Source: a bacterium (GTDB lineage: Bacteria; Patescibacteriota; Gracilibacteria; BD1-5; UBA6164). From it: a DNA stretch of 64,000 bases. Shown one piece after another: positions 23,496 to 31,677 of the stretch; the stretch's first letter is position 1, and every line of letters begins with the position of its first letter. The notes beneath the pieces are model-generated. The model was not told the origin of the DNA and did not search any database. It was given only the letters and a program-made list of their open reading frames with translations. The stretch covers positions 434,001 through 498,000 of the forward strand of contig JAGXIW010000003.1 in assembly GCA_024635475.1 (NCBI GenBank), written 5' to 3'. The translations under genes were made by a program, and so were the position numbers.

Positions 23496-23981
23496 ATGGT
23501 ACAAATCTGAACTAGAGAAGAATATTATAAAAAAAAATGAGAAGTAGGTATTTATGGACAAGATAATTGTCCTTTTTGTGATAGAGAGGAACAAAAGTGA
23601 CAAATAGTATGGGAATGAAAAAATTGGTTTTTAATTCATAATATGTTTCCATATTCTTGAACTGAAAAACATATTATGGCAGTTCCATATGAACATAAAC
23701 TTTACTCTACTGATTTAAACTGAGAAGAATTACTTGAAATGAAAGATATATATAAATTTGTAAAAGAGTATTTTTGAGAAGAAAATTATTTTTCTTGTAC
23801 TAGAGAAGCAATGTGAAACAGAAGTGTAGAACATTATCATATACATTTTGTTCCTTGAAGACTACAATGAAAATACCTTAGAAAGATGCTTGAAAATCAA
23901 GGATTTCCTATAATTCAAGACTTAGATATAACAAAAAAATATGATTCTAAAAATTTAAATTATAAAAAACTGTGCTTTTAG
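23496..23981 (+). CDS. HIT-family hydrolase
   Basis: NCPFCDREEQKGQIVWEGKNWFLIHNMFPYSGTEKHIMAVP...SVEHYHIHFVPGR. Confidence 0.9.
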
Positions 23982-24009: not shown

Positions 24010-24037
24010 TTGACAAACATATTTTTAAAAATATACT
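24010..24037 (+). promoter_or_regulatory. Promoter of the Phe-leader/aromatic operon
   Basis: TTGACA-N16-TATACT. Confidence 0.75.
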
Positions 24038-24068
24038 GCCTTTATATTTATTATGTACTAAATTTTTT

Positions 24069-24134
24069 ATGAAAATAAATAATTTGTCTTTAAATTTCTT
24101 TTTCTTCTATTTTAGCAGTTATTTCCTAAAATAG
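24069..24134 (+). CDS. Phenylalanine-rich leader peptide MKINNLSLNFFFFYFSSYFLK
   Basis: Phe-rich small ORF upstream of a mutually exclusive hairpin array and the Phe/Tyr operon. Confidence 0.85.
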   Translation: MKINNLSLNFFFFYFSSYFLK

Positions 24135-24198
24135 TCTTTTTTGTTGGAACAATAAAAAAAGTAAAGAGCTATTTTAGAAAAAATAGCTCTTTTTTTAT
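24107..24198 (+). promoter_or_regulatory. Transcription attenuator (four-segment alternating hairpins)
   Basis: Seg1 CTATTTTAG 24107-24115; seg2 CTAAAATAG 24126-24134; seg3 AGAGCTATTTT 24165-24175; seg4 AAAATAGCTCT 24180-24190 followed by T7. Confidence 0.88.
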
Positions 24199-24218: not shown

Positions 24219-25061
24219 ATGGTGGTTAAAGATTTCTTGAATTGATGTATAAAAACTAATAATAAAATAAATATTCAAGATATAGATAAAATCTTGAATT
24301 CTGGTTTATTAAAGAAAAAATGACATTTCGCAGAATATATAAAAATAGATTGATATATTATAAAAATTTTTCAAAATATTAATTTAACAAGTGATGAATT
24401 AGATAGATTATATAACTGATATATAAAATACAGAAAAAATCTTGATTTATTGGGTATTAGAATACCAAAATGATTTATTGCAGATAAGTATGAGGATAGA
24501 AAAATTCTATTATTTGTTGATGAATTAATAATAGATTGAAAATATTTAGATTTTGAAGATAAATTGTTAAGAGAAAATGATAATATTTTATTATTAAATG
24601 ATTGTACAAAAATATTAAATCATTTAATAAAAATATGAGAAAATAAATTAAATATAAAAAAAACTAATTCATTATTTTTAAATTGTTGAGTAGATTTTAA
24701 ACATTGAAATATACATTTTGATAGTAATTGAGATTTATACCTTTTTGATTTATTTGTTCCAAAGATAAGAGAAAAAAATTGAGAAATATTATATATAGAA
24801 AAAATTCATAGATTATCAAGAGAAGTACTTGATTTTATACATTTTAATAAGATTTGAATTATTTATTGGTTTTATTACAAGATTAAAACTCTTTTAGAAT
24901 GAAAAAAAGATGAATTGGTTAACTCTTTAAAAAATATTGTTATAATAGAAATATTAAATATTTTTAATTGAGATATAAAAGAAGCTAAAAAATATATAGA
25001 AATACTAGATACAAATTACCGTGAATTATCTATAGATATATTATTAAATGATTATATTTAA
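24219..25061 (+). CDS. Putative protein-kinase-fold protein
   Basis: GVDFKHGNIHFDSNGDLYLFDLFVPKIRE resembles a kinase/phosphotransferase catalytic loop. Confidence 0.4.
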
Positions 25062-25077
25062 TTTTTAACATTTTCTT

Positions 25078-26355
25078 ATGAAAACACTAACTCTTCCATG
25101 ATCTAAATCAATTACAAACAGAGATTTTGTATTGGCTGCACTTACAAGCTGACAAACTGTTTTAGATTGAATTTTATTAAGTGACGATACTCATCATATG
25201 ATGAATGCTCTGAAAAGTATATGAATAAATGTTGTTTTAGATTGAAATAAAGCAATAATTGACGGGTGAGTAGAAAAAATTAAATGAGATGATAAAATAT
25301 TATATCTGGGTCAATCCGGAACTTGTATGAGGTTTTTGACTGCTTTGATTGTACTAAATAAATCTTGAACTATAAATTTAACTGGTGAAGAAAGATTACT
25401 TCAAAGACCTATGGGAGATTTGTTTGATGCACTATGACAACTTTGAGTTAAGTTTGAATCAAGTTGAAAATTACCACCAATCAAGGTTTATCCAAGCGAT
25501 ATAAAAACAAATAAAATAAAGATGAACTGAACTTCATCAAGTCAATTTTTTACAGCTATTTTACAAATTGCTCCAGTGCTTGAAAATGGACTTGAAATTG
25601 AAGTTATTTGAGATTTGGTTAGTAAGCCTTACATAGATTTAACAATTAATGAATTAAGAAAATTTTGAAGTTATGTAGAAAATCAAGATCATAAGTATTT
25701 TAAGATACTACCACAAAAGTATAATCCGTGAAAATTACTAGTTGAGTGAGATGCTTCAGCTTTGTCATACATTGCTTGTTTTTGTGCTTTACACGGATGA
25801 ACTATAAAAATAGAAAATATCGGTTCAAATTCAAAACAATGAGATTACAAATTTTTAGATGAGATGAAGATTTTTTGATTATCTTACGAAAGTGATGGAG
25901 AAACTACAATTATTAAAGCTCCTTGAATAAAAAATATAGATCTAAATAAATACAGAGATTATAAAGTAGATTTTGAAAATATGCCTGATGCAAGTATGAG
26001 TTTTATGATTATGAGTATATTTTTACCCGGAAAAACTTTAATAACTTGACTTCAAACTCTTAATCTAAAAGAATGCTTGAGAATAGATGCGATGAGAGAT
26101 GAACTTAGAAAAATCTGAGTTCAGGTTGAAAGTGATGAAAAAAGTATTACAATATGGAAAATACCTTCTGATTATGAACAAAAATATTCTTCCACTACAA
26201 ATAAAATTAATATAGAAACATATAATGATCACAGAATTGCTATGTGTTTCGGTACACTAAATACCTTTATTTGAGGATTAAATATATTAAATCCAAATTG
26301 TGTAGCTAAAACCTATCCAAAATTTTGGGAGGATTTAGAGGACTTGGGAAATTAG
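25078..26355 (+). CDS. aroA: 3-phosphoshikimate 1-carboxyvinyltransferase
   Basis: LTLPGSKSITNRDFVLAALTSGQTVLDG...LGQSGTCMRFLTA...LQRPMGDLFDALGQLG...NDHRIAMCFG. Confidence 0.92.
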
Positions 26356-26359
26356 TACT

Positions 26360-26450
26360 GTCATCCTGAGAGTAACGAAGGATCCCTTTAACCTAGAAAA
26401 GTACACTAAACAATGCTTAAGGGATTCTTCGGTAAAAACCTCAGAATGAC
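26360..26450. repeat. REP-like intergenic inverted repeat
   Basis: GTCATCCTGAGAGTAACGAAGGATCCCTT...AAGGGATTCTTCGGTAAAAACCTCAGAATGAC. Confidence 0.75.
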
Positions 26451-26488
26451 AATATAACAATAAATATTACTTATTTAACAAAAATATT

Positions 26489-26725
26489 ATGGCAAAAAAT
26501 AATTGGTTAGATGACGAAGAAGAAGTTACTTTAGTTGTAAAAGATTGTAATTGAAATATACTTCAAAATTGAGATACAGTAATTGCTACAAAAGACATAA
26601 AAGTAAAATGAGCTTCTGACATAAAAAGATGAGATAAGTTTCCAAAAATAAAACTTACAGACGATGTAGAACTTATAGAATCAGGAAAAATGGTTTTGAG
26701 AACTGAGTTTTTTAAAAAGGTTTAA
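26489..26725 (+). CDS. PhnA/YjdM C-terminal-domain protein
   Basis: VVKDCNGNILQNGDTVIATKDIKVKGASDIKRGDKFPKIKLTDDVELIESGKMVLRTEFFKKV. Confidence 0.85.
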
Positions 26726-26743: not shown

Positions 26744-27808
26744 ATGAACACACATTGAACACTATTCAAAATAACTACTTTCTGAGAATCTCATGGAAAT
26801 GCCTTGTGAGTGGTTATTGACTGACTGCCTTCAAATTTTGAGATTGATATGGATAATATAGCAAATGAGCTTGGTAGGAGAAAGCCTGGGCAAAGTGTTA
26901 TTACAACTCAAAGAAAAGAAAATGATGAAAATTTTGAAGTACTTTCAGGGATTTTTGAATGAAAATCAACAGGACATCCAATCACAATAATCGTGAAAAA
27001 TGAGAACCAAAAATCAAATGATTATTCAAATATCAAAGACCTTTTTAGACCAAATCATGCTGATTTAACTTACCATTTAAAGTATGGGATAAGAGATTAT
27101 AGATGAGGTTGAAGAAGTAGTGGTAGAGAGACTTTGTCTCGTGTAATAGCTTGAGCAATAGCAAAACAATATCTAAAAGAAAAATTTGGTATAGAAATCT
27201 TTGCTTTTACTAAACAAGTTTGAGAATTCAAAGCTGAAAAAATAGATTATAAATTTATAGAACAAAATATACTTAGAACTGGTGATGAGAAAATAGCTTC
27301 AAAGATGATAGAATATGTAGAAGGTATAAAAAATGATTGAAATAGTGTAGGATGAATTATAGAATGTCACATCAAAAATCCACCAAGTTGATTAGGTGAA
27401 CCAGTTTTCGACAAGATAAAATCAAGATTAGCTTCTTCAATGTTGTCTATATGATGAGCTTTAGGTTTTGAGTATGGAGCTTGATTTGATACAGTAAATC
27501 TGACATGAAAAACATACAATGAATGATTCTATAATACTCATTGAAAAGTTTGTTCTAAGCACAACAATTATGCTTGAATTTTGGGTTGAATCTCAACTTG
27601 AGAAGATATAATCTTTAGAGTTGCTATTAAGCCAACTTCAAGTATTTATGCAGAACAGAAAACAGTTGATATAAACTGAAATGAAGTTGATTTCCAAATT
27701 CACTGAAGACATGATCCTTGTATATTACCAAGAGTTGTTCCTGTAATTGAAGCTATGAGTGCAATTGATATACTTGATTTGGTGTTGTTAAATAATTCGA
27801 AGAAGTAG
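26744..27808 (+). CDS. aroC: Chorismate synthase
   Basis: [27 protein letters not shown]...RRKPGQS...[23 protein letters not shown]...[18 protein letters not shown]. Confidence 0.97.
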
Positions 27809-27829: not shown

Positions 27830-28342
27830 ATGGCTAATTTAGAAACAATAAAATCTGATAAAGAAACTAATCTTCCACATATTTTTGAATTAGAACAATT
27901 AGAAGGGAATGGAGACTTATTAATTACTATAAATTTATGTAAAAGTTTAGAGACTTTTCCTAATTTAAGAATATATAATCCTTTTGGTTCTTCTTTAACT
28001 CCAATAAATACTTATGAAGCACTTGTATCTTTGAAAAAATTATTAGATTGAGAAGATATAGATATAGAGGTAAAAAATTTTATTAAAGAAGCTACTATAA
28101 ATAATTTGGAAGGTAGTATAAGTGTAGAATATATAAAAAATGAAAATAAGGTAGTTTTTACTATAAAGCAAACAAAAGAAAATGGAAACGAAAGATTTAA
28201 GACGAGAAATGCATCTATAATATTTGTATTAGAAAATTCTACAACAGAGTCAAAAGAATTGGTTATTGGTGTGAAGAAAGAAGTTTTTGATTGTTTAGCT
28301 AATTTACAGCATGCAATTTTACAAGATAATAGATTAAATTAA
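27830..28342 (+). CDS. Hypothetical protein in aromatic operon
   Basis: MANLETIKSDKETNLPHIFELEQLEGNGDLLITINL... read through TGA into the second listed ORF in the same frame. Confidence 0.7.
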
Positions 28343-28356
28343 TAATTAATAAATTT

Positions 28357-28620
28357 ATGAACGATTTAGAAAATTTTAGAACAGAACTTGATGAAATTGA
28401 TAAAAACTTGATAGATTCTTTATCTATGAGATTTAAATTGATTGAGAAAATTTGAAAATATAAAAAGAAAAATAATATTACTCCACTACAACAAGATAGA
28501 TGGCAACAAGTTTTGGATTCTAGAAAAGCTTATTGAAAAGAAAAAGAAATAGAAGAAAGTTTTATAGAAGATGTTTGGAATAAAATTCATGAATATTCGT
28601 TGGATATAGAAAAAAAATAA
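28357..28620 (+). CDS. Chorismate mutase (AroQ type)
   Basis: LENFRTELDEIDKNLIDSLSMRFKLIEKIGKYKKKNNITPLQQDRWQQVL. Confidence 0.9.
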
Positions 28621-28658: not shown

Positions 28659-29486
28659 ATGAAAATCTATTACCAATGATTTCCTTGAGCATATTCTGAT
28701 AAAGCATCAATAGAAATTGCTTCTGAACTAAAAATTGAAAAAGATAATATATTTTGATTGAGTACATTTAAAGATGTTTTTGATAAAATAAATCATTGAG
28801 ATATCTGAGTTTTACCGATAGAAAATAGTTATGCAGGTTCTATTTATGAAAATTTTTATCATATATTGTCTGGAGATTATCAGATAATAGGAGAGTTAAA
28901 TTTAGATATAGATCATTGTCTTTTAGCTAATACAAAAGATATAAAAGATATAAAATATGTTTATTCTCATCCTCAAGCTTTATCTCAGTGTCAAAATTAT
29001 ATAGAAAAAAAATGATTTGAAGTAATTGAATATAGTGATACGGCATGAGCTGCAAAATTTGTAGAAGAAAGTAAGAGAAAAGATATAGCTTCAATTTCAT
29101 CAGAATTATGTTCTTCTATTTATTCTTTAAATATTTTAGATAAGAATATAAAAGATCAAGAATGAAATACAACTAGATTTTTTGTTATAGTTTCAAAAGA
29201 AGTTTTTGAACAAAATAAGAAGAAGTTGTCTTTGAAAAAAAATTGAAAAATCTCTATAACTTTCAAAACAAAAAATTCTCCTTCAGCTTTATATAAATGT
29301 CTTGGAGCATTTGCTACTAGGTTTATAAACCTGACAAAAATAGAATCACTACCCGCAAAACAAAACCGTTTTGAGTATATTTTTTGGATAGATTTTCAAA
29401 GTAATCTTGATGAAAATATTATAAATGATGCTTTGGAAGAGTTAAAATTTTTTAGTAAGGACTTGGTGATTTTGGGGGATTATTAA
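28659..29486 (+). CDS. pheA: Prephenate dehydratase
   Basis: MKIYYQGFPGAYSDKASIEIA...GVLPIENSYAGSIYENFY...YSHPQALSQCQNYI...NTTRFFVI. Confidence 0.94.
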
Positions 29487-29503: not shown

Positions 29504-30343
29504 ATGAAAATCGTAATTATCTGATGAACTTGAGTATTTTGACAGTTTTGGAAAAAATACTTTGAAGAAAAATGATTTGAAGTAATAATTTCTTCAAGAA
29601 GTACTACTATAAAGCCAGAGGAAGCAGTAATTCTTTGAGATGTAATTATTTTTAGTGTGAGTATAAGAAATACTGTTAAAATTATAAGAGATTTATTGCC
29701 ATATATTCCTGCAAATAAACTTATAATGGATTTTACAGGAATAAAATTGAAAGCTAGTGAAGAATTGGCTAAATATACTCTCTGAGAAGTTGTTGCTACC
29801 CATCCTATGTTTGGTCCTTGGGCAACATCTCTAGAAAATCAAAATATAGCTTTTGATCCGATAAAAGCTTGAGTTAAATGGGAAAAAATATATAATTTAT
29901 TGAAACAAGATGGTGCCAATATGATAAATATGTCCTCAAAAAAACATGATGAACTTGTCTCAATTGTTCAATCTGCAGTTCATTTTGTAAATCTACTTCT
30001 TGGGCATATACTTAAGAAAAAATGAATAGATATGGGGCAAATTTTGGATATATGAACACCAATTTCTAGGATACAGATGCTTATATTAGCAAGATTTTTA
30101 AATCAAAATGCATCACTTTATACTGATATGCAACTTCATAATGATTATTATAAAGAGTCTATTTTACCAGAAATAAAAAATTATGTAGATTTCTTGGAAG
30201 GTATAATAAATTCTGGAAATGTAGAAAGTTTTGAAAAAGAATTCAATGATGTAAAAGATCATATGTGAAAAAGTTTTTTAGATAAAGCATTATCTACAAC
30301 AAATATAATTGATAAGGAAGTTAGAAAATTTTTAAAAGAATAA
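29504..30343 (+). CDS. tyrA: Prephenate dehydrogenase
   Basis: MKIVIIGGTGVFGQFWKKYFEEKGFEVIISSR...DFTGIKLKASEEL...THPMFGPWATSLENQNIAFDP. Confidence 0.9.
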
Positions 30344-30354
30344 TTATTAAAAAT

Positions 30355-31677
30355 ATGTTTGAAAACATCATAGAAGAATTACTTGCTAGATACTTGAGTA
30401 ATCAAGTATCAAAAGAAACAATCTTGAATGATTTATTTGAGAATGCTTTTTTGAAAGAAAAATATGTAAATGAAATAAGAAGAAGTACAAATATCTGAAT
30501 AATTGCAAATGAAATTTTTAAAAGACTTTGACTAGTTTGAGTTTGTAAAATAATGGCTATTTGAGATATAGAATATTTCGGAGAATTAAAAACTTCTTGG
30601 CAAAATCTAATGAAAAATAGTTTAGCTAATATTGATTTAAATAAACTAGGTTGATATGATTTAAACTGACAATGAAGCGAAAAATTATCTGATACTTTGT
30701 ATAATTATATGAATCAGTATTATAATTTTTCAGATCAAAAAGGGGAGGTTATAAATGAAATAATTCCTTGTTATGGTGCTACTGATGGACTTGTTATGAT
30801 TTTGGATGCCCTAAAACAAAAATATTCGGGTAAAAAAATCAATTTTATTTATCCTGAAGCTAGCTTTATGGCAAGTGTAAGTATAGCAAAAACTTATGAT
30901 TTAAATATGATAGGTTTAAATAAACCTGCTAAAAATAATTTTTTTATAACAAAAGCTCAGATTGATTGAATAAAAAATGAACTTGAAAATAATAAGAATA
31001 TATATTATTTTACTACTGTTTGAAATCCAACATGAGAAAAAATCTCTGAAAATGATTTGTATGAAATAATGAAATATATACTTAGATTAGACAAAAATCC
31101 TATTTTTATACTTGATAATGTTTATGTAGGGTTGTTAAAAAAACAGATTTCAAGCAATATGTTTGAAAAAATCTTTAAAGATAGAGAGATTTTTGAAAGA
31201 ATTATATTTTGTGAAAGTCTATCAAAAACTCTTTGAACAACAGGTATTAGACTTGCTTGGATTTGGACAGTTAACAAAGAATTAAGCTTATTTTTAAAGA
31301 AAAATATAATTTTAAAAAAAGCATGATATTCCAAGGTTTTGGATGGGTTAGTTTGTAACTTACTTTCAAATTTAGAAGAAACCACAAAATTTCAAGAAAA
31401 AGAATTTGAATTTATATCTATCCAAAGAATTAATTTTTTAGATTATATCAAACACAATTTCTCTGAGTTTTTTGATTTTGAATCAAGCTCAAATGTAGAA
31501 GATAGAGAAGGAATTTATATATTACTTAAAGTGAATCCAGAGTACAATGCTCAGTACATATTTGCAGAAACTCAGATAATATGAGTAAGTATGAAATTAA
31601 GTGATTGAGATTATATAAGGTATTCTTTTGGGAACACTGATTATTTTTTCATAGAAAAACTTGACATATTTAATTAA
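30355..31677 (+). CDS. PLP-dependent aminotransferase class I/II
   Basis: PCYGATDGLVMILDAL...PEASFMASVSIA...TVGNPTGEKI...FILDNVYVGLL...ESLSKTLGTTGIRLAWIW. Confidence 0.85.

Follow-up and report, generated by a model that had tools for sequence, protein, structure and literature searches.

The closest described system is the pheL-pheA attenuator of E. coli, in which a short leader containing a run of Phe codons is followed by segments that pair as 1:2, 2:3 or 3:4, and the terminator precedes the chorismate mutase/prephenate dehydratase gene. Attenuators of the trpL/hisL type follow the same logic. T-box leaders also take tRNA charging as input, give antitermination as output and are located before amino-acid operons. 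Predicted attenuators can fail on testing: PMC1262725 recounts in its background that mutation of leader codons had no effect on the regulation of Streptomyces ilvB, and that the attenuator-like leaders of ilvB and leuA showed no codon dependence of the classical kind when mutated.

The DNA analyzed here, a stretch of 64,000 nucleotides that we call the window, lies on contig C4 in a Gracilibacteria genome of 1.35 Mb, and its frames open up once TGA is translated as glycine. We consider it very probable that the region starting at 24010 is a ribosome-mediated transcription attenuator of the pheL/trpL type, in agreement with the original prediction, which was made from the nucleotide sequence and called the element analogous to pheL. 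The window locus shares with pheL-pheA the short Phe-run leader, the three pairings, the modeled profile of responses to ribosome position and the location of the terminator before chorismate mutase and prephenate dehydratase genes. Unlike in E. coli, where the terminator is GC-rich (−18.5 kcal/mol), the terminator in the window is A/T-rich, the codon run includes Tyr codons, the product of the operon is Tyr as well as Phe, there is no Shine-Dalgarno sequence, and TGA encodes Gly. The sequences of the two leaders are unrelated. The Rfam model Phe_leader (RF01859) scored 22.8 bits (E 0.15) on the window leader, whereas its gathering cut-off is 55 bits. Within the family, every genome stayed below this value, the sub-threshold matches never fell at known elements, and E. 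coli was the sole match among 14 control genomes. The sensor codon differs from those of the trpL/hisL-type attenuators, and a Trp-Trp leader precedes trp genes elsewhere in this genome. Unlike T-box leaders, the window element has a leader ORF that is predicted to be translated, and no T-box match.

The leader region and its operon

The leader region follows a HIT-domain gene (23496-23981), and prfA-HIT genes precede the operon. A sigma-70-type promoter, TTGACA-16-TATACT, is located at 24010-24037 on the plus strand, which also carries the other leader elements and the operon genes. It matches the consensus at 11 of 12 positions and has a 16-nt spacer. When the 100 nt upstream were shuffled, 0.7% of the shuffles reached this score, and the promoters of three of the relatives described below (G001, G003 and G020) likewise score 11-12 out of 12. 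The leader peptide ORF, MKINNLSLNFFFFYFSSYFLK, has 21 codons, six of them for Phe and two for Tyr, contains no TGA in frame and ends in TAG (24069-24134). Its regulatory codons are Phe-Phe-Phe-Phe-Tyr-Phe (TTC TTT TTC TTC TAT TTT, 24096-24113). Segment 1 (CTATTTTAG, 24107-24115) overlaps the last Phe/Tyr codons. Segment 2 (CTAAAATAGT, 24126-24135; also delimited as CTAAAATAG at 24126-24134) is the antiterminator strand and includes the leader stop codon. An A/T-rich hairpin is predicted between segments 2 and 3 (24137-24159). Segment 3 (GCTATTTTAG, 24168-24177) lies mostly inside the terminator 5′ arm (AAAGAGCTATTTT, 24163-24175), and the 3′ side of the terminator (24180-24196) consists of segment 4 (AAAATAGCTCTTT, 24180-24192) and a tail of seven T (24190-24196). 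Segment 2 can pair either with segment 1, within the Phe/Tyr codons, or with segment 3, within the terminator 5′ arm. The stems are A/T-rich and weak, with 9 bp for 1:2, 10 bp and about −8.5 kcal/mol for 2:3, and 13 bp and −13.4 kcal/mol for 3:4. The fold of the leader was better than those of 200 out of 200 shuffles (z −3.5). The promoter, the 21-amino-acid peptide, the four segments with mutually exclusive pairings and the T7 tract of the original prediction are all present at the positions it gave.

The operon that had been predicted downstream (aroA, aroC, genes for chorismate mutase, prephenate dehydratase and prephenate dehydrogenase, and an aminotransferase gene) was confirmed by Pfam matches, with the addition of a first gene that the prediction did not mention. 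This gene (24219-25061, 280 amino acids) begins 84 nt after the leader stop codon, has no Pfam or NCBIfam match and had no tblastn match in the subset of relatives with which it was compared; in G001, aroA comes directly after the leader, without this ORF between them. A stretch of its product, HGNIHFDSNGDLYLFD, is similar by eye to the catalytic loop found in aminoglycoside/choline-kinase-like proteins. It is followed by aroA, encoding EPSP synthase (25078-26355; PF00275, E 1.2e-89; TIGR01356 above cut-off), a gene for a 78-amino-acid PhnA/YjdM domain protein (26489-26725; PF03831, E 9e-17), aroC, encoding chorismate synthase (26744-27808; PF01264, E 1e-128; TIGR00033 above cut-off), a gene for a 170-amino-acid protein with no Pfam match (27830-28342), and the genes for a type II chorismate mutase (28357-28620; PF01817, E 6e-22), prephenate dehydratase (28659-29486; PF00800, E 5.8e-51) and prephenate dehydrogenase (29504-30343; PF02153 and PF20463). 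Next is the gene for a class I/II aminotransferase (30355-31677; PF00155, E 2.7e-12), probably aromatic, with a tyrosine transaminase as the top NCBIfam match, below cut-off. A 231-amino-acid ORF in the region downstream of the leader had no family match. A palindromic repeat with the look of a REP/MITE-type element (GTCATCCTGAGAGTAACGAAGGATCC ... GGGATTCTTCGGTAAAAACCTCAGAATGAC, 26359-26452) lies between aroA and the PhnA-like gene. Despite the presence of aroA and aroC in the operon, no DAHP synthase of PF00793 was found in the genome, which is about 93% complete; either the gene is absent from the assembly, or the pathway relies on a different enzyme or intermediate.

Recurrence and specificity of the leader

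The same anatomy, including a counterpart of the leader peptide, was found before aromatic genes in eight genomes of the order other than that of the window (G000): two of the same genus (G001 and G003), five of other genera of the family (G020, G025, G028, G039 and G040) and one of another family (G053). The runs in the nine leaders are NFFFFYF, TFFYFYF, TFFYFYF, TFFFFYF, AFFFFYF, TFFYFFFF, TFFFYFY, TFFFYFF and TFFYFYFF, and the hairpin and T tract are kept in all nine. Conservation of the Phe codons and of the pairing in close relatives, on which the original prediction had staked its refutation, was observed in both same-genus genomes with an aroA/aroC operon (G001, locus L176; G003, locus L054), where segments CTATTTTAG and CTAAAATAG are retained. 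Beyond the genus, six more genomes keep the leader with unrelated pairing sequences; the segments vary by genus (CTATTTTAG; CTTTGAA; CTTTCAA; TCTTTCAGT) and all pairings are kept. In the minimum-energy fold of the G001 leader, the antiterminator is more stable than the terminator. The first recognizable gene downstream is aroA in G001, a shikimate kinase gene in G025, a DAHP synthase gene after a small ORF in G028, a prephenate dehydrogenase gene in G020 and a prephenate dehydratase gene in G039, G040 and G053. Since these first genes differ, the leader does not simply travel along with one gene order. The operon in G003 is long and comprises aroK-aroD, aroE, a DAHP synthase gene, aroB, aroA, aroC, a phenylalanyl-tRNA-synthetase-like gene and the genes for chorismate mutase, prephenate dehydratase and prephenate dehydrogenase; the synthetase-like gene (L054 12240-13466; PF01409 and FDX-ACB) is located between aroC and the chorismate mutase gene. 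Many relatives in which a lone prephenate dehydratase gene, or a dehydratase-dehydrogenase cluster, lies beside unrelated genes had no leader, and the surroundings of chorismate mutase genes at 20 other genome places showed no convincing one.

Phe runs are frequent by themselves, and the significance therefore rests on the combination of elements. The F4YF pattern had 11 matches in the AT-rich window genome compared to 4 for a reversed-pattern control, and a Phe-run DNA pattern used alone as a detector in 288 genomes was rejected because it is too frequent in AT-rich genomes. The combination was defined as an ATG-started ORF, 9-45 codons long, in which six or more of nine residues are Phe/Tyr, followed by a terminator-like hairpin identified by a hairpin-specific finder. 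No Phe/Tyr leader with a terminator appeared in 3000 shuffles of the window intergenic region. The real loci of the order (1.86 Mb strand-bases) contained 12 such combinations, compared to 0, 1 or 2 per run (mean 0.15) in 20 dinucleotide-preserving shuffles; because the loci were picked for their aromatic genes, these counts express specificity within the loci and not a genome-wide rate. Nine of the 12 real leaders, and none from the shuffles, had a 2:3 stem at least as stable as −5.8 kcal/mol, and aromatic amino-acid genes are downstream of all nine leaders that have both the terminator and this strong stem. The other three candidates lack such a stem. Loci with his and trp genes were added to the scanned set, and two candidates were discarded: MVVGINMPGWWNW in L066 (7974-7933), with the look of a Trp leader, overlaps a sequence that by eye is tRNA-like and has no antiterminator, and MYKIKSIYSRHHEGHQS, a chance His match in L046/L184, lies just 3′ of an aminotransferase gene and not upstream of his genes. 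This chance match indicates that His matches are less specific than Phe/Tyr matches.

Ribosome position and competing explanations

The effect of the ribosome was modeled on a transcript ending before segment 4, with everything masked as far as 13 nt beyond the first base of the A-site codon, and the readout was the fraction of the terminator 5′ arm held by upstream RNA. In the nine leaders, the 5′ arm was held (0.76-0.99 at nearly every position) when the ribosome was in the Phe/Tyr run and was freed 1-4 codons past it. In the window, the fraction dropped from 0.76 at the last Phe to 0.54 two codons later and 0.13 three codons later. E. coli pheL, used as the positive control, gave 0.84 over the run, 0.64 at the last Phe and 0.06 one codon later, a similar modeled profile that supports the analogy originally drawn. 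The modeled switch point matches the end of the run, which places the codon run where a stalled ribosome would antiterminate, and a ribosome at the regulatory codons is predicted to free an antiterminator that is mutually exclusive with the terminator. All computational tests favored the attenuator reading of the original prediction except in one part: the 1:2 state expected for no translation does not appear clearly terminating in the equilibrium model. Without a ribosome, segment 3 stays paired in most leaders (0.72 in the window), so that protection by 1:2 pairing (‘superattenuation’), if it works, must be kinetic.

The leaders differ from the genes in their choice of codons. C-ending Phe/Tyr codons were observed 29 times compared to 9.1 expected from the genes (z 7.3), and TTC accounts for four of the six Phe codons of the window leader compared to 7.8% in window genes (p = 0.0005). 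The excess may reflect either a charging-sensitive codon choice, which PMC1183508 discusses as a topic in E. coli, or the avoidance of long U tracts. No Shine-Dalgarno motif was found before the leader or before any window gene (0 of 47); its absence upstream of the leader is therefore normal here. The 20 nt upstream of the gene starts in the window are about 92% A+T.

For the attenuator, we infer the transcription start, ribosome stalling, the actual termination and the response to starvation as follows. RNA polymerase would start near 24044 and a ribosome would enter the 21-codon leader. With ample Phe-tRNA and Tyr-tRNA, the ribosome would pass FFFFYF, reach the stop codon and mask segments 1 and 2; segment 3 would then pair with segment 4 and transcription would end at the T7 tract. 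When Phe-tRNA (or Tyr-tRNA) is scarce, the ribosome would stall in the run and mask segment 1, and segment 2, still exposed, would pair with segment 3 ahead of the synthesis of segment 4. In this case no terminator would form and the operon would be transcribed.

Three other explanations were considered. The hairpin could be a constitutive terminator that separates the operon from the prfA-HIT genes before it, the Phe-rich ORF being an accident of AT-rich DNA. The 11 F4YF matches in the genome fit this idea, as does the hairpin, which is terminator-like and scores on the minus strand too. However, the promoter and the leader lie between the HIT gene and the hairpin, and such a terminator would cut the operon off from its own promoter. 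In the shuffles the full combination was never obtained, and its nine occurrences all precede aromatic genes. We regard this explanation as very unlikely. A device in which the ribosome position controls entry at the first gene's start, or in which ribosomes reinitiate there, without transcription termination, is equally improbable. It would suit the distance of 84 nt between the leader stop codon and the first gene, and reinitiation at leader peptides has been proposed (PMC4833913). Against it, the hairpin and T tract, kept in nine of nine leaders, leave the start of the first gene uncovered.

Least probable of all is a direct sensor of tRNA (a T-box) or a metabolite riboswitch with an untranslated ORF. 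T-boxes and riboswitches likewise switch between a terminator and an antiterminator, but Rfam gave no match to either, whether with gathering thresholds across the window or with E values up to 10 near the leader. Moreover, the conserved part is the ORF with its codon run, and the sensor codons become Trp and His before trp and hisD genes.

Leaders for other amino acids and the possible reach of attenuation

In the genome of the window, the Trp-Trp leader MQNLYFTTAWWLITKNNSFSYTFCV (L256 9893-9816, about 524892-524815 of contig C4, minus strand), which has a terminator and a 2:3 stem of 12 bp, precedes trpC, trpD, trpF and a fused trpE-G, and a similar Trp leader is found in G003 (L257 10615-10556, minus strand). 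In G012, two successive leaders (WW and WWHTPPW; L259 4954-4877 and 4809-4738, minus strand), each with its own terminator-like hairpin, precede trpB-trpA. The scan found no continuous strong 2:3 stem in the second one. Judging from their sequences, this pair is a possible tandem ribosome-mediated attenuator. A His leader in G009, MKKKNIYINIHHHLLEHCSKANGLFGGTKM (HHHLLEH; L248 471-563), has a terminator and an antiterminator weaker than in the Phe cases, and precedes a gene without known family and hisD. More distant members of the class have F/Y- or W/F/Y-rich leaders before genes for prephenate dehydrogenase-prephenate dehydratase (G086), DAHP synthase-prephenate dehydratase (G250), chorismate mutase-prephenate dehydratase (G081) and DAHP synthase-aroB-aroA (G229). 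In the Trp, His and distant leaders the modeled switch was at or near the end of the run, except for the second G012 leader, where it was two codons past WW and ahead of the third Trp codon. In G002 and G004, two genomes of the same genus, where no His leader was found at the hisD loci, hisD comes after a gene of the Trp repressor family (L246 3503-3823; L247 11139-11459; the family was tested for G002), and a repressor may act there in place of an attenuator.

The predicted mechanism is the classical one; the novelty lies in the lineage where it occurs and in its recurrence with several sensor codons across the class. A literature search found no report of leader-peptide attenuation in Gracilibacteria or Patescibacteria; since most subscription papers and preprints were outside its coverage, this is weak evidence of novelty. 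To our knowledge, regulation in the Candidate Phyla Radiation is almost untested because nearly none of these bacteria can be manipulated, and the leader offers a concrete, checkable regulatory device for one of them. We lean toward the view that classical ribosome-mediated attenuation is a general means of controlling amino-acid synthesis in the class, whether or not UGA is read as glycine, with mixed Phe/Tyr(/Trp) runs serving aromatic operons, Trp-Trp serving trp and His runs serving his, operating in the window on messages without Shine-Dalgarno motifs and in one genome through tandem trp attenuators. If this is true, attenuation would be old in the class, and transcription and translation would be tightly coupled in these reduced cells. 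It would imply that ribosomes closely trail the polymerase in UGA-recoding cells without Shine-Dalgarno motifs. The sensor codons of a leader could name the amino acid made by an uncharacterized operon, and some of these cells would tune their own synthesis of aromatic amino acids and not be wholly dependent on a host.
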